Assembly (NCBI RefSeq): GCF_008973715.1
Contig: NZ_WBOL01000004.1
Span: 124,001-188,000, forward strand
DNA: 64,000 bases
Origin: Nitrincola schmidtii
GTDB taxonomy: Bacteria; Pseudomonadota; Gammaproteobacteria; Pseudomonadales; Balneatricaceae
Reading direction: 5' to 3'
Shown here: in pieces, positions 4,999 to 25,282 of the stretch
How positions within the stretch are numbered: the first letter of the stretch is position 1
Layout of the letters: each line of letters starts with the position of its first letter
Notes under the pieces: model-generated
What the model was told of the DNA's origin: nothing
Database searches by the model: none
The model's input: only the letters and a program-made list of their open reading frames with translations
Position numbers and translations under genes: made by a program

Positions 4999-5000
4999 TA

Positions 5001-8975: not shown

Positions 8976-8990
8976 GTCATAGGTTGTTGT

Positions 8991-9656: not shown

Positions 9657-9677
9657 TTTTTTACAGGAAATTCACCC

Positions 9678-10298
9678 ATGAGTGACTATAAATCTCCTTT
9701 GCGTATCGGTGTTGGTGGCCCTGTTGGATCAGGAAAAACGGCACTCTTAGAAGTGCTTTGCAAAGCAATTCGTGACCAATACAGTATTGCCGTCGTCACT
9801 AACGATATCTACACCCAGGAAGATGCCAAAATTCTGACCCGTGCAGAAGCCTTACCGGCTGACCGAATAGTAGGCGTGGAAACTGGTGGTTGCCCTCATA
9901 CCGCCATTCGTGAAGATGCCTCGATGAACCTTGCTGCTGTCGAAGAGTTGGCCAAGCTTCATAAAGATCTCGATGTGGTGTTTGTTGAAAGCGGCGGTGA
10001 TAACCTCAGCGCCACATTCAGTCCGGAACTGGCAGACCTCACGATTTACGTTATCGATGTAGCGGAAGGCGAAAAAATCCCACGTAAAGGGGGTCCAGGA
10101 ATCACTAAATCGGATTTGCTCGTCATCAATAAGATCGACTTGGCGCCTTATGTGGGTGCCAGCCTTGAAGTGATGGAATCGGATACTCAGCGTATGCGAC
10201 CCAACCGCCCTTATGTCTTTACTAACCTAAAGACGGGTATTGGATTGGACGTGATCATCGACTTTGTTGTTAAACAAGGCATGCTGGATGCGGCTTAA
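9678..10298 (+). CDS. ureG: Urease accessory GTPase UreG
   Basis: 206 aa. P-loop GPVGSGKT near residues 12-19, the CPH nickel-binding motif in [26 protein letters not shown], and the guanine-specificity motif NKIDLA. A SIMIBI-class GTPase that couples GTP hydrolysis to nickel insertion into urease with UreD, UreE and UreF. Full length; ribosome site ACAGGAAA before ATG 9678. Confidence 0.97.
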
Positions 10299-10307
10299 AG
10301 GTGATCT

Positions 10308-11171
10308 ATGACTGATCTGAATCTTCCAACACTACCGCCCAACTCGACTACTTCAGATGGATGGCGTGCGCGTATTGCATTGACCTTTGGTGTGCGTCGA
10401 GAAAAAACGCGTGTCATCGCTTCTCAGCGCTTGGGACCCTTATCGGTTCAACGTGCTTTTTACCCAGAAGATTCAGTCTGTCACAGTTACTTGTTACACC
10501 CCCCCGGAGGCGTGGTCGGCGGTGATCGCTTGTACGTAAAGGTTCAAGTCAATTCCCAAGCTCATGCACTGATCACCACCCCGGGAGCGACCAAGTTTTA
10601 TCGCTCTGGCGGACGCTTAGCGCATTACCATCAACATTTGCAGGTCGATGAAGATGCGGCACTAGAGTGGTTACCCCAAGAAAATATCTTCTTCCCCGAC
10701 AGTCAGTTAAGGATGCAAACAGAGATAGATCTTGGTGCGACCTCCCGCTTTATCGGTTGGGAAATTCAATGCTTAGGTCGCCCTGTGATTAATGAACATT
10801 TCGACCGAGGGCAGATTCGTTCTTCCTTGAAACTTAGCATCGATGGAAAACCGTTACTGATAGAACATTTCAACTCACTAAATGATGAGCTGCAACGCTC
10901 TAGCAGCGGGCTACGCGGATCTCCGATGCAAGCGACGATGTTCATCACCTCTTCAGACGATGTGCTGTTGGAACAGATACGTGACACGTTGTTAAGCCTC
11001 AAGCATGACCAGATTGTTAGCGGTGCCACACGATTAGATAACTTGATCGTGGTTCGCTTTTTAGGCCCGCAAACCGAGCCTTTATTGCAGCAAATGGTGA
11101 AAGTTTGGCAAACAGTACGACCCAGTGTAATGGGACGTGAAGCGTGTTTGCCTAGGATATGGGCGACTTAA
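10308..11171 (+). CDS. ureD: Urease accessory protein UreD (UreH)
   Basis: 287 aa. Shows the UreD landmarks: GPLSVQRAFYPED, HPPGGVVGGD, TTPGATKFYRS, and WLPQENIFFPDS. Scaffold that binds apourease and conducts nickel from UreG. It is the last gene of the operon, 9 bp after ureG; in many proteobacteria ureD comes first, so this order is a local variant. No clear terminator follows, and 11172-11218 shows nothing else. Confidence 0.95.
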   Translation: MTDLNLPTLPPNSTTSDGWRARIALTFGVRREKTRVIASQRLGPLSVQRAFYPEDSVCHSYLLHPPGGVVGGDRLYVKVQVNSQAHALITTPGATKFYRSGGRLAHYHQHLQVDEDAALEWLPQENIFFPDSQLRMQTEIDLGATSRFIGWEIQCLGRPVINEHFDRGQIRSSLKLSIDGKPLLIEHFNSLNDELQRSSSGLRGSPMQATMFITSSDDVLLEQIRDTLLSLKHDQIVSGATRLDNLIVVRFLGPQTEPLLQQMVKVWQTVRPSVMGREACLPRIWAT

Positions 11172-11218
11172 GACAGCTCTAAATTACCGATAAGATTTTC
11201 AGCCAATCATACTAGACG

Positions 11219-11914
11219 TTAGCTAAGCATCTCTTTGAACACCGATTCAATATCAAAATCATCTTGCTCTTCGTCGTCAATTTTTAGAGATTTTTCGACA
11301 TGCTCTAGATGTTCTAGCATCAGTGATCTAGCTGTAATTGCATCACCAGAAGAAATCGCTTCGACGATATTATTATGCTCATTATCCTTGCATGCAGACG
11401 CCGAAGGTGAGTCATACAAATAGATTATCAAGCTGGACAAAGCCGTTAAACGTCGCACAATATCATGATAGATGCTATTGCCGCTAAGTTCTGCCAAAAG
11501 TAAGTGGAAGTCCCCCGTAAGCTGGGTTAAACGGGCATGATCCTTTTCAGATCGTGCAGAGGCTTCTTCAGCAAGGTGTTGTTGAAGACGTTTGATGACT
11601 TGAGCGCCAGCCGAATTGGCCAACTGTTCCACAACAGAAACCTCTATTGCTCGACGTGCAGCAAACACCTCTGTTGCATCACGCGCCGTTGGACGCGTCA
11701 CATAAGCACCTCGATTATGTTTCAAGGTAATGATGCGGTCTTGCGCTAAGCGAAAAAACACTTCGCGAAGTCGCGTACGGCTGACTCCAAAAACACGACA
11801 TAAACGCTCTTCAGACAGCTTTAGCCCGGGTGGTAATTTACGATTGGCAATCGCAGCAAACATTAGGTCATATATGCTTTGGTTATCTGTCACTGTTTTT
11901 GATTTAACCACCAC
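11219..11914 (-). CDS. GntR-family regulator, FCD subfamily
   Basis: 231 aa. N-terminal winged helix-turn-helix (LSEERLCRVFGVSRTRLREV, then wing NRGAYVTRP) and an all-helical FCD ligand domain with the metal/ligand pattern DFHLLLAELSGN. The C-terminus is long and acidic. The start is GTG at 11914 with AAGGAA 6 bp upstream; an in-frame TAG two codons earlier rules out an extension. FCD regulators usually sense carboxylates or related small acids. It is transcribed towards ureD, so its target is not obvious; it may act on the racemase/ABC module at 14.5-21.2 kb, whose promoter region has TGTATAC half sites. Confidence 0.88.
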   Translation of the reverse strand: MVVKSKTVTDNQSIYDLMFAAIANRKLPPGLKLSEERLCRVFGVSRTRLREVFFRLAQDRIITLKHNRGAYVTRPTARDATEVFAARRAIEVSVVEQLANSAGAQVIKRLQQHLAEEASARSEKDHARLTQLTGDFHLLLAELSGNSIYHDIVRRLTALSSLIIYLYDSPSASACKDNEHNNIVEAISSGDAITARSLMLEHLEHVEKSLKIDDEEQDDFDIESVFKEMLS

Positions 11915-11949
11915 AAGCTATTCCTTATAAGCAAACAATAGACCGCATT

Positions 11950-11963
11950 AAGTGCATACACTT
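11950..11963. promoter_or_regulatory. Palindrome upstream of the GntR/FCD gene
   Basis: AAGTGCATACACTT is an imperfect dyad 36 bp upstream of the GTG start. It contains TGCATACA, one base different from the TGTATACA seen at 20413-20420. Possible autoregulatory operator. Confidence 0.3.
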
Positions 11964-12014
11964 TATTAAATTTTCTACCTACAATATAGTAATTTATTGT
12001 ATTAAAGATAAGCA

Positions 12015-12563
12015 CTAATAATGTATCACATCCTGAAATACCAACACTCCTAAACCCGAATTTCGATAGCCATGTGGTTGGTCTGCGTTAAAGCTGACAG
12101 TCTCACCGGCGGAGTACTGATACCACTGGCCTGATAAACATAGATCTAGAATCCCTTCTATGACAAGAATACGTTCTGTGACACCTCCTTGATGAGGCTC
12201 AGAATGAGATTCAGCGCCTGGTGCTAGATGAAGTTCCAGCCATTCAAAGTTGACGGTTTCATCAAATGGAAAATGTACTCTAACATCAATACCAGAGGTT
12301 ACTTTAGGTTCATTGACCGGACGCACGGATGACAGGTCATTGGGTTGGTAAAAACACCCTCTGATCAAATGCGTGAATGAGATTTGAAAGCCTGTGGCAA
12401 TTTTCCACAAAGTTGCCAACGTGGGACTGGATTCTCCACGTTCTATCTGACCCAGCATCGCTTTACTGACGCCAGACTTCGCTGCCGCTTGATCTAAACT
12501 CCATTGCCTTGACTGCCTGAGTTCGCGTAATCCTTTGCCTAAACTGCTGGGTTGATTTTCCAT
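12015..12563 (-). CDS. XRE-family regulator with C-terminal cupin domain
   Basis: 182 aa from ATG 12563. Residues about 8-65 form an HTH_3 domain (LRELRQSRQWSLDQAAAKSG, MLGQIERGESSPTLATLWKIA); residues about 110-180 a cupin (PGAESHSEPH, ERILVIEGIL, FNADQPHGY). A longer in-frame start at 12608 is rejected because it would place the first codons inside an operator-like palindrome (12592-12609). XRE-cupin proteins are usually repressors sensing a small molecule in the cupin barrel. Divergent from the BenE-family transporter, which is its probable target together with itself. Confidence 0.88.
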   Translation of the reverse strand: MENQPSSLGKGLRELRQSRQWSLDQAAAKSGVSKAMLGQIERGESSPTLATLWKIATGFQISFTHLIRGCFYQPNDLSSVRPVNEPKVTSGIDVRVHFPFDETVNFEWLELHLAPGAESHSEPHQGGVTERILVIEGILDLCLSGQWYQYSAGETVSFNADQPHGYRNSGLGVLVFQDVIHY

Positions 12564-12591
12564 CACGATAGCCTGCTGTAGATTTTCTATT

Positions 12592-12645
12592 TGTACACTA
12601 TAACGCACAATGCTAAGCTAACCAAATTATGCGCTATAACGCACA
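12592..12645. promoter_or_regulatory. Paired operators between the XRE-cupin gene and the BenE-family gene
   Basis: Two imperfect palindromes share the 12-mer CTATAACGCACA (12598-12609 and 12634-12645), spaced 36 bp. Site 1 (12592-12609) fits TGTnCnnTATAnnGnACA; site 2 (12628-12645) has the stronger dyad TGCGnTATAnCGCA. Both lie in the divergent promoter region and are the natural candidates for binding by the adjacent XRE-cupin protein. Confidence 0.6.
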
Positions 12646-12659
12646 GCCAAAGGTGCTCT

Positions 12660-13829
12660 ATGTCATTACTGAAAGACTTTTCACTCTCCAGTCTCACCGC
12701 AGGTTTTGTTGCGGTGTTAGTGGGTTATACCAGCTCAGCGGTCATTATCTTTCAAGCCGCCGCTGCAGCGGGAGCCTCTCAGGCGGAAGTGACCTCGTGG
12801 TTTTTCGCACTGGGAATCGGCATGGGTCTTTCAACGCTAGGGCTATCGTTGTATTACAAAACCCCGATTTTAACCGCATGGTCAACTCCAGGTGCGGCAT
12901 TGCTAGTAACCAGCTTACCGGGTCTGAGCATGGCGGAGGCGATAGGAGCGTTTATTTTCTGTGGCGCTTTAATTACGCTGGCAGGGATCACGGGTTGGTT
13001 TGAACGCTTGATGAAGTTTTTACCGCAAGAATTAGCCACAGCGATGCTGGCGGGGGTACTGCTTCAATTTGGTTTAGCCGCCTTTCACTCTGCCGAAACC
13101 CACTTAATACTAGTGATAAGCATGTTTGCACTTTACCTATTGGGCAAGCGCTTTTTTCCACGTTATGCGATTCTGATGGTTCTTTTTGGATCGGTAGCAC
13201 TGGTGTATCTGATGGGTGAATTACAACTCGATAGACTGAGCTTTGAACTCGCTACACCGATCATGACTCTGCCCTCTTTTTCGTTGACAGCGTTAATCGG
13301 TGTCGGCATTCCACTGTTTATCGTCACCATGGCATCTCAAAATATGCCCGGCATTGCCGTCATTAAAGCATCGGGTTATCTCCCTCCTTTATCACCCATT
13401 ATTACCTGGACAGGCATCACCACTCTGCTATTGGCTCCTTTAGGTGCTTTCGCACTTAATTTAGCCGCCATCACCGCTGCCATCTGCATGAGTGAAGAGG
13501 CACATCCTGATAAGCAGCGTCGTTATACCGCTGCTGTTGCCGCCAGTATTTTTTATATCTTAAGCGGGCTTCTGGCTGCCTCCGTTGCGACCTTGATGTT
13601 TGCCTTTCCTCAAGCCTTGGTCTTAACCCTAGCGGGACTAGCGTTGTTATCCACCATCGGCAATAGCTTATCGGTTGCGTTAGCCAACCCTGACGGGCGT
13701 GAAGCAGCCTTAATCACCTTTTTAGCCACCGCATCAGGCATGACATTGTTTGGTATTGGCAGTGCTTTTTGGGGGTTATTAGCAGGCGTGCTGGCTTGGC
13801 ATTTGATGCGTAAACCATCCATCAAGTGA
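12660..13829 (+). CDS. BenE-family benzoate/H+ symporter-like transporter
   Basis: 389 aa from ATG 12660 (MSLLKDFSLSS), with AAAGGTG 5-6 bp upstream; the 23-residue extension to 12591 overlaps the operators and is rejected. About 12 hydrophobic segments and the BenE signature region AWSTPGAALLVTSLPG near residue 75. Family members are proton-coupled aromatic-acid carriers of the inner membrane. No benzoate catabolic genes are nearby, and the flanks are nitrogen-metabolism genes, so the true substrate is uncertain. Confidence 0.87.
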   Translation: MSLLKDFSLSSLTAGFVAVLVGYTSSAVIIFQAAAAAGASQAEVTSWFFALGIGMGLSTLGLSLYYKTPILTAWSTPGAALLVTSLPGLSMAEAIGAFIFCGALITLAGITGWFERLMKFLPQELATAMLAGVLLQFGLAAFHSAETHLILVISMFALYLLGKRFFPRYAILMVLFGSVALVYLMGELQLDRLSFELATPIMTLPSFSLTALIGVGIPLFIVTMASQNMPGIAVIKASGYLPPLSPIITWTGITTLLLAPLGAFALNLAAITAAICMSEEAHPDKQRRYTAAVAASIFYILSGLLAASVATLMFAFPQALVLTLAGLALLSTIGNSLSVALANPDGREAALITFLATASGMTLFGIGSAFWGLLAGVLAWHLMRKPSIK

Positions 13830-13838
13830 TCAGAGAAC

Positions 13839-14351
13839 CTACCTAGTCATCAAGTAGGATAGTAAATAACCGGCTGCAAGAATGACGATATAACTGCTTT
13901 CTACTCTTCGACGCTTGGTTTCGTCTTCTCTAGAATTTGTCAGATCAAGCACTGCTTGGTGAAGAAGAAAGGTATAAAGCACAAAATACAAAAACGGAAT
14001 GACATGGACTTGGAAGGGATAGTCACTGATATCTCGACCAAATAGCGCGAGCAACCAGCCCATTTGCGTGAAGATCCCTAAAGCACCCAGCCCTGCGTTG
14101 ATAAACATCCACTTTACTTCGTCCATTCCGAAGATGAATAAGTAAAAGATGACGTATACAAGAATCGCGACTCCCCCATGAAAATATAAAAAAAGAATAT
14201 TCTCAGGGGTATCCGCATAAGCCATCACAAAACCCGAACCGCCAAACGCCAGCATATGGACTAGAAAGAACGGATAGATCTTGTACCAAGCTATCTCTTC
14301 ACCCTTTTTATAAAGTCGTCCATTGATAGTGATATCTGCTCGAAGCTTCAT
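13839..14351 (-). CDS. Unrecognised four- to five-helix membrane protein
   Basis: 170 aa. Short polar N-terminus with a KKGEEI segment (MKLRADITINGRLYKKGEEI), then hydrophobic segments at about 23-45, 52-74, 80-103, 115-135 and 150-168. I do not recognise the family. A 7-codon copy of its N-terminus (MKLRADI) survives at 21933-21953, immediately downstream of puuE, so the gene probably once formed the end of an alc-allA-puuE operon. That links it to allantoin catabolism or ureide transport, but no function can be assigned. It converges on the BenE-family gene with a 9-bp gap. Confidence 0.75.
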   Translation of the reverse strand: MKLRADITINGRLYKKGEEIAWYKIYPFFLVHMLAFGGSGFVMAYADTPENILFLYFHGGVAILVYVIFYLFIFGMDEVKWMFINAGLGALGIFTQMGWLLALFGRDISDYPFQVHVIPFLYFVLYTFLLHQAVLDLTNSREDETKRRRVESSYIVILAAGYLLSYLMTR

Positions 14352-14356
14352 GACGA

Positions 14357-14463
14357 CTATCGTTTAACGAACTGGACTTTCTGCATAGACTTCTCCTTTA
14401 TGCCCAATCAACACTACGAACCTGACCAGGCTCAAAGGCAAACTCATCACAATTTAGTAAATG
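14357..14463 (-). pseudogene. Remnant of allA 3' end fused to an internally deleted puuE
   Basis: Bases 14381-14460 match the allA/puuE junction at 22889-22968 with about 85% identity by eye. The reverse strand encodes the last ~20 residues of ureidoglycolate lyase (NCDEFAFEPGQVRSVDWA, stop 14398-14400), the same AAAGGAGAAG ribosome site, then a puuE start codon at 14386. That ORF has only nine codons (MQKVQFVKR) before TAG: the first two match the puuE start and the last ones resemble its end, so about 300 codons are deleted. The unknown membrane-protein gene begins 5 bp later. This is a fossil of a second allantoin locus. Confidence 0.75.
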
Positions 14464-14481
14464 TTTAAACTCAAATGCGTT

Positions 14482-14517
14482 GAAGCTTGATCTGTATGCA
14501 AGTCTTGATCAAGCTTC
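14482..14517. terminator. Hairpin downstream of the oligopeptide-type ABC operon
   Basis: Perfect 11-bp inverted repeat, GAAGCTTGATC (14482-14492) and GATCAAGCTTC (14507-14517), 14-nt loop, 9 bp beyond the stop of the last ABC gene. There is no strong T-run, so it may act as an mRNA 3' end stabiliser rather than a classical terminator. Confidence 0.5.
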
Positions 14518-14525
14518 TTGTATGA

Positions 14526-15503
14526 TTAAACCTCAGCTAATGCATGAATACAACGTACTGCACGAGTTTGCGCCTGATAAGCTGCTGGCATTGGTTTCAT
14601 ACACTCATCGGTTCGGTAACTACAGCGTGCAGCAAACGCACACTCTGTAATTTGCCGTGTAAGCTGCGGCGGTGATCCGGGTATAGCTGGCAGTGCCTGC
14701 TTACGATCCATCCCAGGATGAACGGTAGCACCGAGAAGACCTTGTGTATATGGATGCCAAGGATTAGATAACACATCATCAACAGGCCCTTCTTCGATAA
14801 TACGCCCGGCATACATCACCGCAGTTCGATCAGCCACTTCAATAGCAACACCAACGTCATGAGTGACAAAAATCATACTCATGCCTAACTCACGCTGAAG
14901 CTCTTTTAACAACAATAACACCTGTATCTGAACAGTAGCATCAAGTGCCGTAGTTGGCTCATCTGCAAGCAAAATCTTAGGCTTACACGCAAGAGCCAAT
15001 GCAATCATGGCTCGCTGACGCATACCACCCGACATTTCATGAGGGTAAGCATCCAAACGCTTAGCCGCTGAAGGTATACGAACACGTTCTAACATTTCTA
15101 ATGCTCGCTTACGCGCATCAACTCGACTAAAACCTTCATGTCGCATCACCGATTCAATAATTTGATCACCCACCGTATATACAGGATCAAACGCCAACAT
15201 AGGTTCCTGAAATACCATCGAAACCGTTTTTCCTCGCATCGCCGATAAGGCGGCAGGGCGCATCGACAATAGATCCACACCGTCAATATTTATCTGTCCT
15301 TCAATGCGGGTTTTATGTGCAGGATGCAGACGCATCAACGACTTCATAGTGACACTTTTACCACAACCTGATTCACCCAATAATGCTAAGGTTTCGCCAG
15401 CCGCTAGATCAAAACTGACATCTGACACAGCATAAACAGGTCCCTCTTCACCTTTAAAAGTTACATTCAGGTTACGAACGTCTATTAATTTATCAGCACT
15501 CAT
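14526..15503 (-). CDS. Oligopeptide-type ABC transporter ATPase (DppD/OppD-like)
   Basis: 325 aa. Walker A GESGCGKS (about 43-50), ABC signature MSGGMRQRAMIALALA, Walker B ILLADEPTTALD, H-loop FVTHD, and the C-terminal oligo_HPY region (NPWHPYTQGLLGA) ending in a cysteine pattern (CAFAARCSYRTDEC, then C near the end) typical of DppD/OppD. Its start overlaps the stop of the partner ATPase gene by 4 bp. Last gene of the five-gene importer operon. Substrate unknown; see the binding protein at 18452-20092. Confidence 0.9.
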   Translation of the reverse strand: MSADKLIDVRNLNVTFKGEEGPVYAVSDVSFDLAAGETLALLGESGCGKSVTMKSLMRLHPAHKTRIEGQINIDGVDLLSMRPAALSAMRGKTVSMVFQEPMLAFDPVYTVGDQIIESVMRHEGFSRVDARKRALEMLERVRIPSAAKRLDAYPHEMSGGMRQRAMIALALACKPKILLADEPTTALDATVQIQVLLLLKELQRELGMSMIFVTHDVGVAIEVADRTAVMYAGRIIEEGPVDDVLSNPWHPYTQGLLGATVHPGMDRKQALPAIPGSPPQLTRQITECAFAARCSYRTDECMKPMPAAYQAQTRAVRCIHALAEV

Positions 15504-16516
15504 GCTGACACCTCCTGTAACTGAATGTATTTTTCATGATTAGGATTTGCTGGCAGCATAAAACAAGCGGCTTGATGCAAACCCTCAACTCTTGTGGTCT
15601 CTGGCTGCTGTGAAGAACAGATGGCACGAGCATGCTCACAACGTGGATGAAATCGGCAACCTGAAGGCGGAGCAATTGGATTGGGTGGATCGCCTTCTAG
15701 GACTTTGTGTTGTTTGCGTTCATGTGGCGTTTGTGAGGGCACCGAACTTAGTAGTGCACGGGTATAGGGATGAGCTGGGTTTTGATACAGTTGCTCGACA
15801 GGACCTGATTCCACGACTTGTCCCAAATACATCACCATGACGTCGTCACTGATATACTGAACAACATTGAGATCATGAGAGATAAAAAGATAGGTCAAAC
15901 CAAACTCTTTCTTCAAATCAGATAAGAGGTTTAGCACTTGTGCCTGAACCGATTTATCCAATGCAGAAACTGCTTCATCCAAAAGCACAATTTCCGGCTT
16001 GATGGCGAGCGCTCTGGCAATATTCACCCTCTGCCGCTGACCACCCGATAACTCATGTGGATATCGACGTACAAAGACATTTGGATTCAAACCCACTTTT
16101 TCTAGTAAATCTCTGGCCTGCTGACGTGCTTCACGCTCACTAACACCGTGTATCTGTGGACCAAAAGCGATGCTGTCTTCTATCGTCAAGCGCGGATTTA
16201 AAGAGGCGTAAGAATCCTGAAATACCATCTGCATCTGACGACGTAGTTCAGCAACGGGATGGCGGCCACTGATGTTACCAAACTCTTTGCCACGAATACT
16301 GATACGCCCCTCATCTGGTTCAATAAGATGCATGAGTAAACGAGCCGTAGTGGATTTACCACAACCAGATTCTCCCACAATACCAAGGGTTCTCCCTTTT
16401 TCAACACTGAAGCTAACGCCATCAACCGCCTGAACCACTTGTGTCGGGCGTCCAAGCAGATCCTTACCTACTGGGAAATATTTTTTCAAATCCTGTACAC
16501 GCAATAAGGCAGTCAT
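15500..16516 (-). CDS. Oligopeptide-type ABC transporter ATPase (DppF/OppF-like)
   Basis: 338 aa from ATG 16516; a TTG one codon upstream is less likely. Walker A GESGCGKST, Q-loop VFQDSYASLNP, signature LSGGQRQRVNIARALA, Walker B IVLLDEAVSALD (Ala replaces the usual Pro after Glu), H-loop ISHDL, and the oligo_HPY C-terminus NPAHPYTRALL with RFHPRCEHA. Heterodimerises with the DppD-like ATPase at 14526-15503 to drive import. Sits 5 bp after the second permease gene. Confidence 0.9.
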   Translation of the reverse strand: MTALLRVQDLKKYFPVGKDLLGRPTQVVQAVDGVSFSVEKGRTLGIVGESGCGKSTTARLLMHLIEPDEGRISIRGKEFGNISGRHPVAELRRQMQMVFQDSYASLNPRLTIEDSIAFGPQIHGVSEREARQQARDLLEKVGLNPNVFVRRYPHELSGGQRQRVNIARALAIKPEIVLLDEAVSALDKSVQAQVLNLLSDLKKEFGLTYLFISHDLNVVQYISDDVMVMYLGQVVESGPVEQLYQNPAHPYTRALLSSVPSQTPHERKQHKVLEGDPPNPIAPPSGCRFHPRCEHARAICSSQQPETTRVEGLHQAACFMLPANPNHEKYIQLQEVSA

Positions 16517-16521
16517 CAATA

Positions 16522-17427
16522 TTACCTCTTGATATCCATGGCACTGCGCAATCCATCAGACAGCAGGTTAAAACACAGTGAGGTGATAAAAATCATTAGC
16601 CCGGGGAGAACAGAGATCCAAGGCTGGATGTAAATTGATTGCCGCAGAGTATTCAGCATCAATCCCCATTCAGGGGTCGGTGGTCTAACTCCTAACCCAA
16701 GAAAACTTAATCCCGCTGCCAGAATCATGCAAACAGAGACGAGACTTGTGGCGTAAATAAACACAGGTCCCAGAACATTGCCTAAAACATGCACACGAAT
16801 AATGGTGAAGTTACCTGCACCAGAAGCACGAGCCGCCTCGACAAAATCCAAATTTCGTACTGATGTGGTCACACTTTCAGCCACACGAGCTATCGGTGGA
16901 ATAAACACCAGAGTGAGCGAAATAATGGCGTTAATAAAACCTGCCCCCAAGGCACCTGAAATAGCTATCGCCAAGAGCACCGCAGGAAATGCAAAGAATA
17001 CATCAGTGGTACGCATGATGAGTGAGTTGATCCAACCACCAAAAAAACCAGCAATTAAGCCTAACGATGTGCCTATTGCAAAGGCGATAAATACAGGGAG
17101 TAAACCCATCATTAGGCTCATCTGTCCGCCGTGCATCAGTCGCGATAACATGTCACGACCCAATTCATCTGTACCCAGCCAATGCCCTTCTGTACCTATA
17201 GGAGATAAGCGTTTCAACATGGTACCCTGACTAGGATCATAGGGTGCCAGCAAAGGTGCAAAGACTGCAATTAACACCATTAGTAGTAATACAACAGCAC
17301 AGCCAACGGATACGGGATCTCTAACCAGTCTTGTCCAAACGGTTGTCCAGTAACCTCTTGAGACTGCTGCTGTTTCTGCTGCAAGTGCAAATTTTTCTTT
17401 TGAAGTAGTGGAAGCTATGGTGGTCAT
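16522..17427 (-). CDS. Oligopeptide-type ABC transporter permease (DppC-like)
   Basis: 301 aa. Cytoplasmic N-terminus, the OppC-type N-terminal membrane segment near 40-62, then APYDPSQ and GTDELGRDMLSRLMHG, the characteristic DppC/OppC periplasmic segment. The EAA loop is EAARASGAGNFTIIRVHVLG near residue 215. Forms the membrane pore with the DppB-like subunit, whose stop lies 4 bp upstream of this start. Confidence 0.9.
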   Translation of the reverse strand: MTTIASTTSKEKFALAAETAAVSRGYWTTVWTRLVRDPVSVGCAVVLLLMVLIAVFAPLLAPYDPSQGTMLKRLSPIGTEGHWLGTDELGRDMLSRLMHGGQMSLMMGLLPVFIAFAIGTSLGLIAGFFGGWINSLIMRTTDVFFAFPAVLLAIAISGALGAGFINAIISLTLVFIPPIARVAESVTTSVRNLDFVEAARASGAGNFTIIRVHVLGNVLGPVFIYATSLVSVCMILAAGLSFLGLGVRPPTPEWGLMLNTLRQSIYIQPWISVLPGLMIFITSLCFNLLSDGLRSAMDIKR

Positions 17428-17431
17428 CCGA

Positions 17432-18385
17432 TTACCCTCGCTTGATCCGTGGATCCATCAGTGTTTGTAGAACATCCACTAATAGGTTCAGACCAACAAA
17501 AAACATTGCCAATACCAGAATAATGCCCTGTAACAAGGGGATATCGCGCTGAAAGATTGCTGTATTCAACAAATATCCGGTGCCGGGCCAAGAAAACACC
17601 GTTTCGACCAGAATCGAGCCGCCTAACAAATAACCAAACTGCAATCCCATAACAGACAACACGGTAGGTGCGGCATTTTTAGCCACATGCAGGGCAATAC
17701 GACGTCCACGCAAGCCTCGCGCATACAACGCAGTAACAAACTCGGAGTTCAAGATCTCAGAAACCGTTGCACGAACTGTACGAGTAACAATACCCATAGG
17801 AATAAAACACATAGTGACTGCTGGCAACACTAAATGACGCAGATGCGCCCAATCTAAACGCCAGTCAGATGATCCTCCTGGACCTGCACCCATTGAAGGA
17901 AGCCAATCTAGGTGTACAGAAAAGATAATTACTAACAATAAGCCCAACCAATAGTGCGGTATAGATACTCCTGTAATAGCCAGAGCTGTCGCCAGCTTAT
18001 CAATCCAAGTACCGTTATAGATGGCCGCTAAAGCACCTAAGAGAATGCCTCCCAAAAAACCCAGCAAAGCCGCCGCAAATGCCAATAATAGGGTATTACT
18101 CAAGGCTAGGGCTATGTCACCCATGACAGGGCGCCCTGTGGCAACGGAAACCCCTAGATCTCCTTGGAGTGCTCGCTGTATCCAACTACCAAATTGCACC
18201 AATAAAGGTCGATCCATTCCGTAGGCTTGCTGTATGGCGATCACGACTTCGGCCGGTGCATCCGCTGGAATAATTGCCGTTAAAGGATCACCCGGTGCTA
18301 GGTGAACCAGTGAGAAACACACAGCTGCAACGGCTAAAGCGATTGGAATGGCATAAAGAAAACGCCGAATGATAAAGACAAACAT
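17432..18385 (-). CDS. Oligopeptide-type ABC transporter permease (DppB-like)
   Basis: 317 aa. N-terminal IRRFLYAIPIALAVAAVCF, then HLAPGDPL, the hallmark DppB start, six predicted membrane segments and the EAA loop (ALYARGLRGRRIALHVAKNA). Inner-membrane partner of the DppC-like subunit. Separated from the upstream binding-protein gene by 66 bp that hold a stable hairpin, which probably lowers permease expression relative to the binding protein. Confidence 0.9.
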   Translation of the reverse strand: MFVFIIRRFLYAIPIALAVAAVCFSLVHLAPGDPLTAIIPADAPAEVVIAIQQAYGMDRPLLVQFGSWIQRALQGDLGVSVATGRPVMGDIALALSNTLLLAFAAALLGFLGGILLGALAAIYNGTWIDKLATALAITGVSIPHYWLGLLLVIIFSVHLDWLPSMGAGPGGSSDWRLDWAHLRHLVLPAVTMCFIPMGIVTRTVRATVSEILNSEFVTALYARGLRGRRIALHVAKNAAPTVLSVMGLQFGYLLGGSILVETVFSWPGTGYLLNTAIFQRDIPLLQGIILVLAMFFVGLNLLVDVLQTLMDPRIKRG

Positions 18386-18405
18386 AATGGTTACCCGCAG
18401 TCAGC

Positions 18406-18438
18406 GAGGTGATCAACGAAAGAAGGCTTGATCACCTC
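18406..18438. terminator. Hairpin between binding-protein and permease genes
   Basis: Perfect 11-bp stem, GAGGTGATCAA (18406-18416) with TTGATCACCTC (18428-18438), 11-nt loop, directly after the binding-protein stop codon. No T-run. Such hairpins after the first gene of importer operons typically protect the binding-protein mRNA or partly stop transcription. Confidence 0.55.
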
Positions 18439-18451
18439 TATTCAAGCTGAA

Positions 18452-20092
18452 TTATTCTTCCATGTAGACAGGTGTTAAATCCTGAAACCAGCTTTTAGCT
18501 TGAACAAAACCAGCCACTTTTGGTCCCATGGCTCGTGGGCCTGTGTCATGACCTACGAACAAGAAAGGTGCATCTTCAACGAGAGTTTCATGCAACTGGC
18601 GATAGATACGAAGATTCTCTTCAGGGTCAAACGCTGTTTGCAGTTCTGCAATCAAACCATCGACTTCAACATTGTTGTAATGACCCCAGTTAAGCGACAC
18701 AGGTGCTACATTTTTCGAATCGATAAAACGAATCATCGCTGCAAAAGGATCATGAGTTGCAAAGGTGATATTGGTTGCATGGGCACCTAAAGAGGCCTGA
18801 TCAGCCGCGCCTTGACGCCAGTTATTGAACAGCGTTTCCCATACTAAGACTTCAAACTCAATCTCAATACCCACTTCTTTCAACTGCTGCTGAATCAGCT
18901 CATTCATCTGAAGAGGCTGCATTTGACCTGAACCAGACGCAGATATTAACACTTTGGCTTTGACAGGATTGTTCGGACCAAACCCTGCTTCGGCAAGCAA
19001 CGCTTTTGCAGCTTCAGGATCATAACCGATGTTAAATTCAGGCTCACCAAAGCCTGCATCGTCAGGTAATAATAGCCCTTGTGCTGGAACCATATAACCA
19101 CCGAGTAACTGCTGAATGGATTCACGATCAACCGCTAGGTTTGCAGCCTGACGTACACGCTTATCCAACCACGGAGAATCCGCTAAAAAGCTGAACTGCC
19201 ATGGCCAAATATGAGGATAACCATTGCTGGTGATCTGATAACCACGACTTTGTAACATTGGCAAGGTATCGGCCGGTGGATTCTCGATCCAATCAACCTG
19301 ACGAGACAACAAAGCATTGGCTCGAGTATTAGCTTCTGGAATTGGAATTAAAACCAAGCGATCTGCTTTTGCACGGCGAGATTCATCCCAATAGTCAGCA
19401 AATGGAATCAATTCAGCACGCTCACGTGGTACTAAAACGTCCAGTGAAAAAGGGCCGGTTCCTGAAGGGTTTTTCTCAAAGGCTTCCCAGTCACCATTTA
19501 ATGCTTCCCAGTGAGCAGGACTCGACATAAACATAAAAGGTAATTGATTGATAAACATTGCGTTGGGAGTTTTGGTCGTAATCTCTACAGTGTATTCATC
19601 CAACTTTTGAATACTTTCATAGGCAGGCAAACGAGCAACAACTTGGGCTGCTTGACGCGCATCATATTGAGGCGACTGGTCATTGAAAACCTTATCAAAG
19701 TTGAACACGACAGCATCTGCATTGAATTCAGAACCATCATGGAACGTGACACCCTCACGTAATTGAAAAACCCACTTACGAGGGTCTGCTTCATCAACAT
19801 GCCAGGCTGTCGCCAACTGTGGCACTAAGGGTGCTACCTTATCGTCTACGGAAAGATCCCAACTGACTAAGGCATCGTAAAGGGTCATACCAGTAAAACG
19901 AACACCCTCAAATCCAGAATTTGGTGCACCTGACGTCAATGGAATATCCGAAGCTGTCATTCCGATACGTACCGTACCACCCTGAGCCATCGCCGTAATC
20001 GGTATCAATGTGGCCAGCGTAGCAATGGCAAGTGATTTGAGTGGAAAAACTCTTTTCAGTGAATTGTGTGCAAAAGTTGTCTTAGATTTCAT
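18452..20092 (-). CDS. ABC transporter substrate-binding protein, family 5 (DppA/OppA type)
   Basis: 546 aa. Signal peptide with hydrophobic core LAIATLATLIPITAM ending AMA-Q, then the SBP_bac_5 fold (LYDALVSWDLS, WVFQLREGVTFHDGSEFNADAVVFN). Family members bind peptides, nickel, or other small polar compounds in the periplasm. The linked racemase and the surrounding allantoin genes suggest a hydantoin, carbamoyl amino acid or ureide substrate, which is inference only. First gene of the operon, with an AAAGGAG ribosome site and a sigma-54 promoter about 35 bp upstream. Confidence 0.9.
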   Translation of the reverse strand: MKSKTTFAHNSLKRVFPLKSLAIATLATLIPITAMAQGGTVRIGMTASDIPLTSGAPNSGFEGVRFTGMTLYDALVSWDLSVDDKVAPLVPQLATAWHVDEADPRKWVFQLREGVTFHDGSEFNADAVVFNFDKVFNDQSPQYDARQAAQVVARLPAYESIQKLDEYTVEITTKTPNAMFINQLPFMFMSSPAHWEALNGDWEAFEKNPSGTGPFSLDVLVPRERAELIPFADYWDESRRAKADRLVLIPIPEANTRANALLSRQVDWIENPPADTLPMLQSRGYQITSNGYPHIWPWQFSFLADSPWLDKRVRQAANLAVDRESIQQLLGGYMVPAQGLLLPDDAGFGEPEFNIGYDPEAAKALLAEAGFGPNNPVKAKVLISASGSGQMQPLQMNELIQQQLKEVGIEIEFEVLVWETLFNNWRQGAADQASLGAHATNITFATHDPFAAMIRFIDSKNVAPVSLNWGHYNNVEVDGLIAELQTAFDPEENLRIYRQLHETLVEDAPFLFVGHDTGPRAMGPKVAGFVQAKSWFQDLTPVYMEE

Positions 20093-20126
20093 AACAGTGC
20101 TCCTTTGAGTGTGTTAAATAACCTTT

Positions 20127-20142
20127 TGCATAACTCGTGCCA
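20127..20142 (-). promoter_or_regulatory. Sigma-54 promoter of the oligopeptide-type importer operon
   Basis: On the minus strand it reads TGGCACGAGTTATGCA: perfect -24 TGGCAC, -12 ATGC (one base from TTGC), GG-N10-GC spacing. The start point would be near 20116, 24 bp before the binding-protein ATG. Confidence 0.75.
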
Positions 20143-20263
20143 CAACATATAATATTTTTTGTATTTTCTATTGTATTCAATATTTACATGCATTTATGTA
20201 GCCAGACACAACACCTATTCATATAACCATCGATTTAAAATCTCTTAAAAACAGTCTATTGAT

Positions 20264-20309
20264 CGCACCAATTTGGATAGATTGATGTAAAATGCACAAT
20301 AAAAGTGCA
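20264..20309. promoter_or_regulatory. Paired NtrC-like sites upstream of the importer operon
   Basis: TGCACAATAAAAGTGCA (20293-20309) has both full arms of the NtrC dyad TGCAC-N7-GTGCA. CGCACCAATTTGGATAG (20264-20280) is a partial second site centred 29 bp away, about three helical turns. They lie 150-190 bp upstream of the predicted start. The divergent gap 20093-20432 also holds a near-palindrome TATTGTATTCAATA at 20169-20182 of unknown role. Confidence 0.65.
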
Positions 20310-20390
20310 ATAAACATCTTTCGCTAGCGCCTTTAATTGAACTAAATTTTTCTAATTTTTTAAACAACAGCTAGTCGAAATGTGCTTTTT

Positions 20391-20420
20391 TGTATACCTT
20401 AATATCAATTAATGTATACA
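20391..20420. promoter_or_regulatory. Inverted TGTATAC repeat before the racemase gene
   Basis: TGTATAC (20391-20397) and GTATACA (20414-20420) form a 7-bp inverted pair just ahead of the racemase start at 20433. Each half is itself the GTATAC palindrome, similar to operators of GntR/FCD repressors (TnGTnnnACnA). The GntR/FCD protein at 11219-11914 is a candidate binder. Confidence 0.4.
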
Positions 20421-20432
20421 GAGACCAATCAA

Positions 20433-21158
20433 ATGATCATCAATCTAATTAATCCCAACACTTCTGAATCTATGACATCCTGCATAGCAGAAGCAGCCCA
20501 ACTTGTTGCCTCTCCAGAGACTCATCTACGCAGTTGTCACCCTTTACATGGCGCAGCATCTATCGAAGGTTTTTTGGATGAATTGATCGCTGCAACAGGC
20601 GTCATCGAACAAATAAAACTTGGTGAAAAAGAGGGGTGCCAAGCGCATATCATTGCCTGCTTTGGTGATCCTGGGCTCGATGCTGCAAGAGAGGTATCTA
20701 ATTCCCCAGTCATAGGTATTGCTGAAGCCGCAATGCATACCGCAACCTTTCTTGGACATCGTTTCAGTGTCGTCACCAGTTTATGTCGTACCGTAGCAAT
20801 GACAGAACATCTATTGATTAAGTATGGAATGGAACATCAGTGTGCCAGTATCAGAGCCGTCGATATTGCCGTACTGGATTTGCATAATCCCGAGTCAGAC
20901 GCCTATCGGAAAATTTTGGAATCCTGCCAAGAAGCCATTCAAAAAGATAAAGCAGATGCGATTGTTTTAGGTTGTGCAGGAATGGCTGACTTACAAAAGA
21001 ACCTCACTAATGCGCTTGGCATCCCTGTGATTGATGGTGTTGCTAGCGCAATAGGTATAGCCGAAATGTTAATACGCTGCGGACTATCGACCGGAAAGCG
21101 TGGTTGCTATGCACCACCCTTAGCCAAAAAATATACAGGGTGGGCCAATAACTTATAG
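20433..21158 (+). CDS. Asp/Glu/hydantoin racemase family; hydantoin or allantoin racemase
   Basis: 241 aa from ATG 20433 (MIINLINPNTSESMT). An ATG 7 codons earlier lies inside the GTATAC repeat and lacks a ribosome site. The two catalytic cysteines of cofactor-independent racemases are at residues 76 (ACFGDPG) and 181 (LGCAGMA), the same spacing as in characterised hydantoin racemases (Cys76/Cys181) and close to allantoin racemase HpxA. It would interconvert 5-substituted hydantoin enantiomers. Because puuE, uraD and alc lie alongside, racemising allantoin to feed stereospecific PuuE is the most economical role. No hydantoinase or carbamoylase is present. Divergent from the importer operon. 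Confidence 0.82.
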   Translation: MIINLINPNTSESMTSCIAEAAQLVASPETHLRSCHPLHGAASIEGFLDELIAATGVIEQIKLGEKEGCQAHIIACFGDPGLDAAREVSNSPVIGIAEAAMHTATFLGHRFSVVTSLCRTVAMTEHLLIKYGMEHQCASIRAVDIAVLDLHNPESDAYRKILESCQEAIQKDKADAIVLGCAGMADLQKNLTNALGIPVIDGVASAIGIAEMLIRCGLSTGKRGCYAPPLAKKYTGWANNL

Positions 21159-21195
21159 CAAAATCAGTCGACTAGACTCTTGTTATTGCTTCTGT

Positions 21196-21873
21196 TTATT
21201 TAGACCAGATTCGCTCACCACTGTCTTGAGAAGCAGCCCATTCATCAACAGACTTTACTGATAAGTCAAAGTACTCTCGAGTGAGAGAATAGCCTTGACC
21301 TCCCATTCGGCCCACAGCATCCAATAACTGTTGGTCAATATGAAGTTTTTCAGGGTCACAAAGATCTTGATGGATATGCGCAAAAACTACTTCACCGAGG
21401 ACGATCTCGCCCTTCGGTCCGGTAGGTATTATCATAGTTTTATTACATTCCAAAGACACTGGAGCGTCTAATATTCTGGGTGATGGTACCAAAATACCAT
21501 TTTCTGAACTTAAACCTGCAGCGACCAATTCACTATCTTGTTCTGGAAAGGCGATAGCGCATATGCTCATTGCTTCGACAAGAGAGTTGTTAACAATATT
21601 GATCGTAAAAACACCCGTTTCTTGTATATTTCGCAAGGTATCTTTTTCTACACCATCTGCTTTTCGTTGAATACCAAAACCTACCAAGGGAGGATCAGCG
21701 GATAAAGCATTAAAAAAACTAAAAGGAGCCGCGTTAACTCTTCCAGAGTTATCAATAGTGGTTATCCATGCAATAGGTCTCGGAACAATACTACCTATAA
21801 GCACCTTGTAGCACTCATGAGGCGTTAGTTGAGAGAAATCAATTCCATAATGCGTATCGCTTTTTGATGTCAT
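21196..21873 (-). CDS. Flavin reductase-like domain protein (FMN-binding)
   Basis: 225 aa from ATG 21873 with AGGAG 6 bp upstream; the longer ORF to 21900 is rejected. Flavin_Reduct fold: IGSIVPRPIAWITTID, VNAAPFSFFNALSADPPLVGFGI, then NIQETGVFTINIVN, matching the larger DIM6/NTAB-type branch rather than short two-component reductases. Binds FMN; could reduce flavin for an oxygenase or act on its own substrate. No oxygenase lies nearby. Its start codon overlaps (ATGA) the stop of a 27-codon ORF left from a broken copy of the membrane-protein gene, so it may be read by coupling from the puuE message. Confidence 0.85.
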   Translation of the reverse strand: MTSKSDTHYGIDFSQLTPHECYKVLIGSIVPRPIAWITTIDNSGRVNAAPFSFFNALSADPPLVGFGIQRKADGVEKDTLRNIQETGVFTINIVNNSLVEAMSICAIAFPEQDSELVAAGLSSENGILVPSPRILDAPVSLECNKTMIIPTGPKGEIVLGEVVFAHIHQDLCDPEKLHIDQQLLDAVGRMGGQGYSLTREYFDLSVKSVDEWAASQDSGERIWSK

Positions 21874-21953
21874 TGAACACTCCTGTTGTTGGACATGCAT
21901 TTAAGTTTTATGAAAATTATCCGCTCAACCACGATATCTGCTCGAAGCTTCAT
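21870..21953 (-). pseudogene. 5' remnant of the unknown membrane-protein gene
   Basis: The reverse strand from ATG 21953 encodes MKLRADI, identical to the start of the 170-aa protein at 13839-14351 (a 21-bp identity, 21933-21953 with 14331-14351). It then diverges and stops at 21870-21872, overlapping the flavin-reductase ATG. It marks the right-hand junction of the inserted module. Confidence 0.7.
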
Positions 21954-21964
21954 AATGGAAACTC

Positions 21965-22894
21965 TTATTTACGAACCGGATGCTCCGCAATCCAATGTCG
22001 CGCAATATCTTCACGTCGTGTCACCCAGACACCCTCATGTGCTTGCACATAATCCAAGAATCTCTGTAACGCCTTAAAGCGCCCAGGACGACCCACTAAA
22101 CGACAATGTAATCCAACGGACATCATTTTAGGAGCATCAGCCCCTTCGGCATACAGCACATCAAAGCTGTCACGAAGATAGTTAAAGAACTCTTCCCCAT
22201 CCGCAAAACCAGTTGGTGATGAGAACCTCATATCATTACAGTCTAAGGTGTAAGGAATAACTAAGTGATGTTTCGACTCCCCCTGCGTTGTTTCAACTTG
22301 AGTCCAGAAAGGTAAGTCATCACCGTAGTAATCTGAATCGTAAAGAAAACCACCCTGCTCGACGATTAAGCGGCGAGTATTGGGAGAATCGCGACCCGTA
22401 TACCAACCCAATGGAGCCTTTCCGGTGAGTTGTTCAAAGATCTGAATCGCTTCTTTCAGATGCTGACGCTCTTTGGCCTCCGGCATCTCTTGATAGTGAA
22501 TCCATCGCAATCCATGACAGCAGATATCATGACCGAGGCGCTGAAACTCAGCCGTGACATCTGGATGACGCTGCAGTGCCATGGCAACACCAAAAATCGT
22601 CATGGGCAAACTGCGACGCTCAAACTCCCGAAGAATGCGCCAGACGCCCGCTCGCGATCCATATTCATAGATCGACTCCATGCTTAAATGTCGATCAGGA
22701 TAAGGCGTTGCACCGGCAATTTCTGACAGAAAGGTCTCTGCATGGGCATCACCATGCAACACGGACATTTCGCCACCTTCTTCGTAGTTCAACACAAAGT
22801 TAAGTGCTATACGTGCTTGATTGGGCCAACGAGGATTGGGAGGATTGGCACCGTAACCGACTAAATCACGCGGGTAGTGTTGATTATTCTGCAT
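21965..22894 (-). CDS. puuE: Allantoinase PuuE (polysaccharide-deacetylase family)
   Basis: 309 aa from ATG 22894, with AAAGGAGAAG as ribosome site; the ORF upstream of this is spurious. Opens with MQNNQHYPRDLVGYGANPP in conserved form, contains LNFVLNYEEGGE, YGSRAGVWRILREFERR, DICCHGLRWIHYQEM and YTGRDSPNTRRL, the cofactor-independent allantoinase family described in Pseudomonas. Converts (S)-allantoin to allantoate in the cytoplasm. Third gene of rpiR-alc-allA-puuE, 11 bp after allA. Confidence 0.93.
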   Translation of the reverse strand: MQNNQHYPRDLVGYGANPPNPRWPNQARIALNFVLNYEEGGEMSVLHGDAHAETFLSEIAGATPYPDRHLSMESIYEYGSRAGVWRILREFERRSLPMTIFGVAMALQRHPDVTAEFQRLGHDICCHGLRWIHYQEMPEAKERQHLKEAIQIFEQLTGKAPLGWYTGRDSPNTRRLIVEQGGFLYDSDYYGDDLPFWTQVETTQGESKHHLVIPYTLDCNDMRFSSPTGFADGEEFFNYLRDSFDVLYAEGADAPKMMSVGLHCRLVGRPGRFKALQRFLDYVQAHEGVWVTRREDIARHWIAEHPVRK

Positions 22895-22905
22895 CGACTT
22901 CTCCT

Positions 22906-23412
22906 TTACGCCCAATCAATACTACGAACCTGATCAGGCTCGAGGGTAAATTCATCACAATTCGGTAGCTGACCGCTTCGATCTACAACCAGCAATTCGT
23001 CTTCATCGGCTGTAACGATCAAAGGATGGTGCCAAACGCCGGCTGCATAGTTCACTCCTTGCGAACCATCGCTGATAAACAGGCACATTTGACTCAGGTC
23101 TGGCTGATCTCCCGGCGGTGCAACGACGATTAGAAACGGCTTTCCTTTTAACGGAATAAAGGCTTGAGAACCGAAAGGATGACGTTCAAGCATTTTAATG
23201 TCTAAAGGAAATTGATCCGCCTTGGGTTTGCGAAAAATACTAATAATCACCTGCCCATCGTCTGGACCTGTTTCGACCTGAGCCATATTGTGATAGCGCT
23301 CAGTACTACCACCATTAATCAGAAAATGACTGTGCTGTTGTCGATCAATCACTTGACCAAAAGGAGCAAAGTTTTTTGCCGTTAAAGGTTGCGGCGTCAG
23401 TTGAATCGACAT
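22906..23412 (-). CDS. allA: Ureidoglycolate lyase
   Basis: 168 aa, typical length. Contains LTAKNFAPFGQVI at the start, KMLERHPFGSQAFIPL and GVNYAAGVWHHPLI, the cupin-type metal-site segments of AllA. Splits ureidoglycolate into glyoxylate and urea, the second urea released from allantoate. Two bases after alc. The last 20 codons and the following ribosome site exist in a diverged second copy at 14398-14460. Confidence 0.93.
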   Translation of the reverse strand: MSIQLTPQPLTAKNFAPFGQVIDRQQHSHFLINGGSTERYHNMAQVETGPDDGQVIISIFRKPKADQFPLDIKMLERHPFGSQAFIPLKGKPFLIVVAPPGDQPDLSQMCLFISDGSQGVNYAAGVWHHPLIVTADEDELLVVDRSGQLPNCDEFTLEPDQVRSIDWA

Positions 23413-23414
23413 GC

Positions 23415-24416
23415 TTAGCGCCTCGCAATATGGCCTAGTAAACGTAATCGGCTAACACCCCCATCCGGGAAAATATTCAGACGCACATGGGTAATCGGGC
23501 CTAGATCCTGCAGTTCTGTGGTAAACGTATGCTCTTGGTGCATCTGAAGCTTATGTGAGGGTAGCAATTCTTTCCAGTAGAGACTTTGGGTCTCGATCTG
23601 ACTTTCGGTACCGCCTTTCACATACGCCGCCTGAATAGAGCAGCTATCGGGATAGTTACCTTTAAAGTGTAGCGTATCCACAATAATCTTTTCGACCACG
23701 CCAGGATGCCCTAACGACAGAATCACCCAATCATACCCAGGCGTGCGACGACGAGCGGTTTCCCAACCATCACCCATATTGATTCCACGACCTGGATTAA
23801 TCAGATTACTGATGCTGCCGTAATGCTCATCAGAACAGGCCAGCGCTCGACCACCGTTTAGCACAGAGACAAGATCTAACGCTTCTGTTTCGCTGACCGA
23901 TGACCAATCACGGTAAGGAATACCATAGACTCGTAAGCGAGCCACACCCCCATCAGGGTAGATATTGAAACGCAAGTGCGTCCAAGCTTGGTCGGAATGC
24001 AAGGTTTCATGCAGATGATGGCTATTGCCCTGCAAATCAACGGAATGAAGAATCTGAGTCCAGCGTGTTTGCTCATCGGGATCACCCGTTTCACAGAAAC
24101 ACGCTTCTAAAGATGCGGAAGGAGGATAGTTACCGGTAAAATAAGACGTATCGATATCAACACCTTGAATATAACCCGGCACACCTAAGCGAATAATCGC
24201 ATGATCATAGCCTTCAAAGCGCTTACGGCGACTTTCCCAGCCATCCATCCATTTACCATTGTCATCGAATACACCCTCTTTCCATACCGGTGCTTCAGGA
24301 TTAAACAACCGATTAACATCGGCAAACCAATCATCCGTGACAAAAACGGCACGTGTACCCAAACGGGCGTCGGCAAGGTTAATACTGCGTTTATAAGGGT
24401 TTTCAACGGACTGCAT
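23415..24416 (-). CDS. alc: Allantoicase
   Basis: 333 aa. Two tandem allantoicase (galactose-binding-like) repeats: the first has [16 protein letters not shown] and [20 protein letters not shown], the second [17 protein letters not shown] and [20 protein letters not shown]. Hydrolyses allantoate to ureidoglycolate and urea. The allantoicase branch (rather than allantoate amidohydrolase) makes urea, which explains the co-located urease. Starts 20 bp after the RpiR-family gene. Confidence 0.95.
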
Positions 24417-24436
24417 GATGGCCTCTCGAAATAAGG

Positions 24437-25282
24437 TTAGTAGGATAGATTGATATCCAATTCTTCGGTTGAATCATATAACTGATTAATTTTCTCAATA
24501 CGCGCGCGGCCTTTATCTAGCTGATAATGAAGCAGCAAGTTACTGAGTAAACTCACCACACTCATGGGCAGTGCGTAGCTGTCAAAGGCAGAGATGGTGT
24601 CCAGTGGAAGTTCCAGAAACCATTTAGGTTTACTTTTCCCTAGACCGCTCTGTTCTTCACTAATTAACAACACGGGAACATTTAGTTTTTGCAACGTTTT
24701 CAGTAAGGCATTAAAACCAGCGGGGCGACGATGAAACGCCAATAACACTACGACATCCTGTGGGGTAAAATCTGCAACCTCTTCTGATACGGTCTGACCC
24801 GGTTGCGGTAACAACAAAACGGCTGGACGAATTTGAATAAGCTGTTGACGCAAATGCAGCGCAACGGGATAGCTATTGCGAAAGCCAATCACCGCAATAC
24901 GGTTAGCAGCATCTAACTGCTCGGTAATGTCCGCTAGTAACGAAGTTTGAGCCAAGGCCTGTAGACGCTTTAGATTTTTCATTTCGCTTGCAAGGTGCCG
25001 ATCGACCAAACTAGCTTCACTATTGAGTTTAGGACCCGGTAACGGCACACCGGACTGACGTAAACGACGTAAATCTTCACGCACCTCTTTAAAATTGGAG
25101 TAACCTAAGCGACGAAACAACCGGCTAATGGTTGCTTTTGATGTATCACATTGGCGACTCAGTTCTACCGAATTATAGGTTGCTAAATCATCAAGATGAT
25201 CGAGTATAAAGCTAGCTACACGTTTTTCTGTAGGCGATAGCTGATCATATTCTTGACGTATTTGTGCTGAAATTCGACGCAT
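24437..25282 (-). CDS. RpiR/MurR-family regulator (HTH_6 + SIS)
   Basis: 281 aa. N-terminal HTH_6 domain ([20 protein letters not shown], then [20 protein letters not shown]) and a C-terminal SIS fold ([32 protein letters not shown]) of the kind that binds phosphosugars or related ligands. First gene of the operon with alc, allA and puuE, so the obvious target is its own promoter and an allantoin-pathway compound is the likely effector. The ligand cannot be deduced. Confidence 0.88.

Follow-up and report, generated by a model that had tools for sequence, protein, structure and literature searches.

Displaced allantoin-operon ends beside a transporter block in Nitrincola schmidtii suggest a rearrangement of native neighbouring genes

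Results

We analysed a stretch of 64,000 nucleotides from Nitrincola schmidtii (the window; contig NZ_WBOL01000004.1, positions 124,001–188,000; host genome 3.14 Mb), to which all position numbers below refer. In it, an oligopeptide-type ABC transporter (opp), a racemase and a flavin reductase-like gene (flavR) lie between two sets of allantoin-operon ends, an arrangement that a first-pass annotation had read as a module inserted into the operon. Judging from gene order, the transporter most likely kept its place, and the side carrying a membrane protein, a BenE-type transporter and an XRE-type regulator was displaced, with allantoin-operon ends attached: oppD adjoins the GntR regulator gene in six of the seven transporter-bearing genomes of the genus sample (11 genomes, several of them drafts), and the sister genome G009 is colinear with the window without the 2.6-kb block that lies between oppD and GntR here.

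Both edges carry pieces of the same operon, as annotated at first pass (Table 1). On the minus strand, the membrane-protein start at 14351 is accompanied on the left edge by a puuE remnant (14357–14386) reading MQKVQFVKR and a TAG stop, and by the last ~21 codons of allA (about 14398–14463). The left puuE carries an internal deletion, also proposed earlier, and only nine codons remain. The right edge holds exactly seven codons from the start of the membrane-protein gene (21933–21953) next to intact puuE and intact allA. This 21-mer is identical at both edges (21/21) and occurs exactly twice in the window. The repeat spanning the allA end and the puuE start (14379–14454 and 22887–22962) aligns without gaps at 68/76 identical positions (89.5%); the divergence of the two allA ends thus stands, at a slightly higher identity than the ~85% first given, and at the protein level its 21 allA codons show 71% identity. 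The repeat scored 112 and the 21-mer 42 in local alignment, whereas 300 single-base shuffles of the left edge reached 31 at most, which rules out chance similarity. Because of the extent of the repeats, the shuffle scores and the twice-only 21-mer, a likeness limited to the ribosome-binding site, raised at first pass as a possible objection, is ruled out as well.

G009 is the window's sister on rpoB (93.9% identity, bootstrap 100) in a tree of the nine genus genomes in which rpoB was recovered (none in G006 and G008). It is a draft metagenome bin, 92% complete, with the locus on a 14.9-kb contig (L124). Window positions 11057–11911 and 14518–25282 are colinear with G009 1–853 and 960–11735; that is, G009 equals the window minus 11912–14517, with 106 bases of its own instead. 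BenE and the membrane protein were not found elsewhere in this 92% complete bin. The junction of the 21-base fossil with flavR is present in G009, and the left fossil is absent. The oppD–GntR spacer of G009 shows homology to the G008 spacer (75/99, 0/500 shuffles as good) and, more weakly, to the G001 spacer (52/63, 3/500 shuffles as good), and for this reason looks ancestral and original, not restored; an origin by a secondary precise deletion was rejected on the homology to the G008 spacer.

Identity to G009 was 92.6–93.8% for oppB, oppC, oppD and oppF, 98.0% for oppA, 91.3% for puuE, 85.8% for allA and 93.1% for GntR. The 855-base stretch comprising GntR and the ureD end was 90.5% identical, and no donor-like tract was found. 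At the seam between oppD and the allA fragment (allA'), no shared sequence was seen by eye; the seam holds an inverted repeat, and the position of the joint is approximate. In the puuE tail, also compared by eye, the left copy has letters common to G009 but missing from the right copy, which makes it a sibling of the right copy and no recent offshoot of it.

Three local features were noted in the comparison with G009. A mosaic patch at 18018–20267 (oppB end and oppA) shows 95–99% identity in 250-base bins, with about 85–96% in its surroundings. Near alc, at the RpiR 3' end (24437–25282), identity falls from 95.6% (bin 24268–24517) to 61–70% in the next three 250-base bins. At the allA stop of G009 (L124 about 9345–9380), 14 bases are imperfectly duplicated in tandem, which is the case in neither window copy.

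Across the genus, gene orders were as follows, with names for LysR, TDT, DMT, AraC, PhoD, XRE and BenE given by eye from open reading frames (ORFs), with no family search behind them, and with the ORF at 23415–24416 taken by us to be alc, allantoicase. The window reads alc-allA-puuE-fossil-flavR-racemase-opp-[allA'-puuE'-membrane protein-BenE-XRE]-GntR-ureD, and G009 alc-allA-puuE-fossil-flavR-racemase-opp-GntR-ureD. The transporter-less G010 reads ureD...DMT-AraC-PhoD-XRE-BenE-membrane protein-puuE-allA-alc-RpiR, uninterrupted from alc to XRE; it supplies the intact alc-allA-puuE-membrane protein order that the first-pass annotation had proposed to look for in relatives, continuing into BenE and XRE. 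G001 has alc-allA-puuE-BenE-XRE-AraC-DMT-TDT-LysR-racemase-oppABCFD-GntR...ureD. From puuE to the racemase, the distance is 5.8 kb in G001, and it is 0.8 kb in both G009 and the window. In G003 and G007 (racemase-opp-GntR...ureD), the allantoin genes lie on the same contig, about 76 and 66 kb off; G005 has racemase-opp-GntR, with puuE on a separate contig, and G008, whose contig begins inside oppC, has oppC-F-D-GntR-ureD. The genomes with oppD next to GntR are G001, G003, G005, G007, G008 and G009, and the exception is the window. UreD lies beyond GntR in G001, G003, G006, G007, G008 and G009 (its end only), and beside the locus in G010. BenE-XRE adjoins puuE directly in G001 and G006, and via the membrane protein in G010.

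G006 (87% complete, locus on a 12-kb stretch, L131) reads allA-puuE-BenE-XRE-[oppD tail]-GntR-ureD. The tail (VRCIH, L131 about 4370–4420) reads VRCIHSLETLTPVS, and with these last oppD codons remaining between XRE and GntR, G006 has lost the transporter. Alc and RpiR were not found on the 12-kb stretch, no membrane protein was found in the 87% complete genome, and the XRE there spans two frames. The membrane protein is scattered, occurring in 3/38 relatives and 4/369 class genomes, the host genome being counted in both. In G002, no other locus gene was found near it except a weak GntR match. A pattern scan of genome contigs with the membrane protein gave 34 pattern matches, with no relative among them.

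The features are collected in Table 1. A Pfam scan covered ten proteins of 13839–23412; XRE, BenE, GntR, alc and smaller ORFs lay outside it.

Table 1 Features of the allantoin locus and its surroundings in the window.
Feature	Position	Strand	Basis or remark
ureD	10308..11171	+	tblastn maps; named by eye beside ureG/ureF-like ORFs
GntR regulator	11219..11914	-	tblastn maps; here parted from oppD
2.6-kb block: XRE, BenE, membrane protein, puuE', allA'	11912..14517	-	not at this place in sister G009
XRE-type regulator	12015..12608	-	named by eye
BenE-type transporter	12591..13829	+	named by eye
Membrane protein, 170 aa, intact	13839..14351	-	no Pfam or NCBIfam match
puuE remnant (puuE'), 9 codons + stop	14357..14386	-	ends 5 bases before membrane-protein start
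allA 3' end fragment (allA')	14398..14463	-	tblastn 14401-14463; repeat 14379-14454
Perfect 11-bp inverted repeat at oppD/allA' seam	14482..14517	-	folding, genome-wide search
oppD-type ABC ATPase	14526..15503	-	
oppF-type ABC ATPase	15500..16519	-	
oppC-type permease	16522..17427	-	
oppB-type permease	17432..18385	-	
Family 5 solute-binding protein (oppA)	18452..20092	-	
Racemase, hydantoin/allantoin racemase type	20412..21158	+	
Flavin reductase-like protein (flavR)	21196..21900	-	
Membrane-protein first 7 codons (fossil)	21933..21953	-	identical in G009
puuE allantoinase, intact	21965..22915	-	TIGR03212 above cut-off
allA ureidoglycolate lyase, intact	22906..23412	-	
alc (allantoicase, presumed)	23415..24416	-	name from first-pass annotation

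The rearrangement may also have changed how the membrane protein is expressed, as its gene would now stand last in the opp transcription unit. By eye, the start of this gene lacks its own ribosome site; the puuE' site upstream is AAAGGAGAA, and this site with the nine-codon frame could act as a leader ending 5 bases before the membrane-protein start codon. A simple scan of 11800–14700 found no minus-strand promoter-like site between oppD and the membrane protein, a weak result (3 sites in total, 4.7 expected by chance). The seam inverted repeat folds at −15.9 kcal/mol (z −3.6, 1/200 shuffles as good), is single-copy in a genome-wide search, and has no T run by eye.

The predicted proteins read as a route for allantoin uptake, racemisation and breakdown to urea beside urease genes, based on the likeness of the racemase, its linkage to puuE and the gene context. 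The racemase matches PF01177 (E 1e-54), the structure 3qvj, 'putative hydantoin racemase' (E 1e-68), which we take to be Klebsiella HpxA, and 5lfd, 'allantoin racemase' (E 6e-54), and thus resembles allantoin racemases of the HpxA type. Two cysteines have a catalytic role in these racemases. The window protein keeps both, as its C83 and C188 stand opposite two 3qvj cysteines (serine in 3qvk). In 5lfd, a glycine faces C83, and the first cysteine is therefore not universal under the name allantoin racemase. In the best 80 loci (one of them that of G009) of at least 559 racemase relatives, puuE was found in 54, allA in 39 and alc in 37. The solute-binding protein belongs to family 5; its nearest relatives bind dipeptides and heme, and a ureide substrate is therefore a mere guess from context. 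The nearest matches of flavR are a 2-nitrobenzoate nitroreductase and a 'nitrilotriacetate monooxygenase component B' protein. In the genus it was found only in the window and G009 at E 1e-20, and no source was found in any other of the 369 class genomes at E 1e-50. In the family sample, its best match beyond the genus was 41%, and, among the loci listed, a 52.7% relative stands at locus L108 beside a distant solute-binding protein. The transporter module is thus functionally at home, no stranger to allantoin genes. Enterobacterial allantoin clusters, presumably those called hpxSAB-type, hold a GntR regulator, a racemase and PuuE together, as here (e.g. locus L068); the window cluster adds the oligopeptide-type ABC transporter, the flavin reductase-like gene and the adjoining urease genes. 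A literature search on Nitrincola and allantoin found nothing.

Discussion

The history that we tentatively favour, with a little less than even confidence, is that two native neighbouring blocks changed places, with DNA from a close relative taken up at the second step. The old order, given left to right as the window runs, would have been ureD-GntR-oppDFCBA-racemase-(LysR, TDT, DMT, AraC)-XRE-BenE-(membrane protein)-puuE-allA-alc. Before the window and G009 split, a deletion that reached the membrane protein's codon 7, accompanied by the gain of flavR, may have joined the transporter/racemase block to puuE; the fossil/flavR junction is in both genomes and, if inherited, would be older than their split. 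In the window lineage, a segment comprising XRE, BenE, the membrane protein, puuE and the allA 3' end would then have arrived in the oppD–GntR spacer. The most likely route would be DNA uptake from a close relative with XRE-BenE-membrane protein-puuE-allA beside GntR, joined by a homology anchor at GntR and a homology-free join just past the oppD stop. The puuE of the moved block would later have shrunk to nine codons. The deletion at codon 7 and the loss within puuE can be read from the sequence comparison, and the route by which the block arrived is inferred. Since the ancestor's membrane protein would already have been cut to seven codons, the block should derive from a relative or from an earlier-kept duplicate; an arrangement of the donor type, puuE-BenE-XRE beside GntR, exists in G006. 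Several points weigh against this history. No sequenced donor has the whole block, as G006 shows no membrane protein, and the evidence from G009 comes from a draft bin and a 14.9-kb contig. Neither spacer of the window is clearly like that of G009, as shuffles did equally well in 145/500 and 40/500 cases. The three allA ends appear nearly equidistant (left–right 8/76; by eye, left–G009 about 5 and right–G009 about 9), so that donor and vertical descent look alike, and with such small counts we claim no branching order.

The displaced left block is equally the moved part in a tandem duplication, head to tail, from the oppD–GntR spacer to within allA, followed by complementary loss, which we consider somewhat less likely. 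Copy 1 would have lost its transporter half and most of puuE, and copy 2 the half from LysR to the membrane protein while gaining flavR; G009 would have collapsed later through recombination between the two transporter copies. Such a history leaves the retained genes intact once each, with allA' and puuE' (copy 1) and the 7-codon fossil (copy 2) where predicted, and makes a donor unnecessary. The left–right divergence is close to the allA difference between the window and G009 (85.8% identity), as expected if the duplication took place around the species split, and collapse between transporter copies would give G009 its ancestral spacer, as observed; the SNAP paper proposes this route (PMC7055797). 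However, more steps are needed (the duplication, two deletions, the puuE deletion and the G009 collapse), with two breakpoints falling in one spacer some 100 bases long. A second solute-binding protein or a second puuE was found in no genus genome (0/11 at E 1e-60; collapsed repeats in drafts would escape). No LysR, AraC or opp leftovers were found in the window's gaps: apart from the homologous spacers and fossils, a search with a cut-off of E 0.5 turned up only 12–14-base matches (E 0.28–0.37). Import in the reverse direction is improbable: a transporter-less resident, ureD-GntR-XRE-BenE-membrane protein-puuE-allA-alc, would have received a G009-like opp-racemase-flavR-fossil-puuE-allA-alc segment, with a homology-free join at the resident allA and a homologous one inside or close to alc. 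It yields the identical final order and fossils, transporter-less forms exist in G006 and G010, and identity to G009 drops sharply near 24518, at the RpiR 3' end past alc (95.6% to 70.4% in 250-base bins). Yet the window lineage would have to lose the transporter and regain it, and the segment is no more G009-like than its flanks, except for oppA. The RpiR genes of the window and G009 are about as far from that of G010 as from one another (window–G010 76.2%, G009–G010 71.9%, window–G009 71.9%), so the drop near 24518 marks no donor edge.

The first-pass annotation had proposed that a DNA segment with the ABC transporter, racemase and flavin reductase-like genes and a homologous allantoin end (in our reading a circle with an allA-puuE-membrane-protein end) was integrated by a single crossover, followed by deletion in one puuE. 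Direct repeats of the extents expected from such a Campbell integration do flank the insert, and an uninterrupted relative exists. The direction of insertion is another matter, and we regard the model as quite improbable: the transporter–GntR neighbourhood is ancestral (oppD next to GntR in 6/7) and retained in the sister G009, which shows the right junction without the left fossil and with an original-looking spacer, contrary to a joint origin of the two junctions. No integrase was matched among the ten Pfam-scanned proteins. The extent of the module needs redrawing too, as its flavin-reductase end is common to G009 and the left fossil belongs to a larger displaced block, about 11912–14517. 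Insertion of a transposon is unlikely; among the same ten proteins, the sole transposition-related Pfam match was a weak TniB hit on the oppD ATPase (24.1 bits, cut-off 22.4), a cross-match given its 108 bits to ABC_tran.

The locus has partial parallels. It would resemble homology-facilitated illegitimate recombination (PMC3240628) in that one of its ends may lie in GntR/ureD homology, with the oppD/allA' join lacking evident homology; it differs in that no donor was found and its homologous end cannot be placed. The SNAP hypothesis explains gene-order change by duplication and complementary loss, and its authors wrote in 2020 that there was no direct evidence for late intermediates in modern species (PMC7055797). 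The window is like SNAP in its swapped block order, its retained genes intact once and pseudogene ends matching the intact copies; it differs in that no relative has two full copies and a single import explains it equally well.

The kind of event is ordinary, and its traces are unusually legible. A reading of the locus as the natural fossil of a change in gene order driven by selection, in which tandem duplication of a catabolic stretch and complementary losses brought urease, transporter, racemase and allantoinase together, is less likely than not. If it is true, the window would offer a worked natural example of the SNAP route, lacking direct evidence in modern species according to the 2020 paper (PMC7055797), and allA', puuE' and the 7-codon stub would be the remains of the lost halves, a late intermediate. 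Within the genus, the transporter/racemase/GntR block lies at ~76, 66, 5.8 and 0.8 kb from alc-allA-puuE, a graded series in which the assembly of a pathway cluster by loss of intervening genes can be read from the scars it left.

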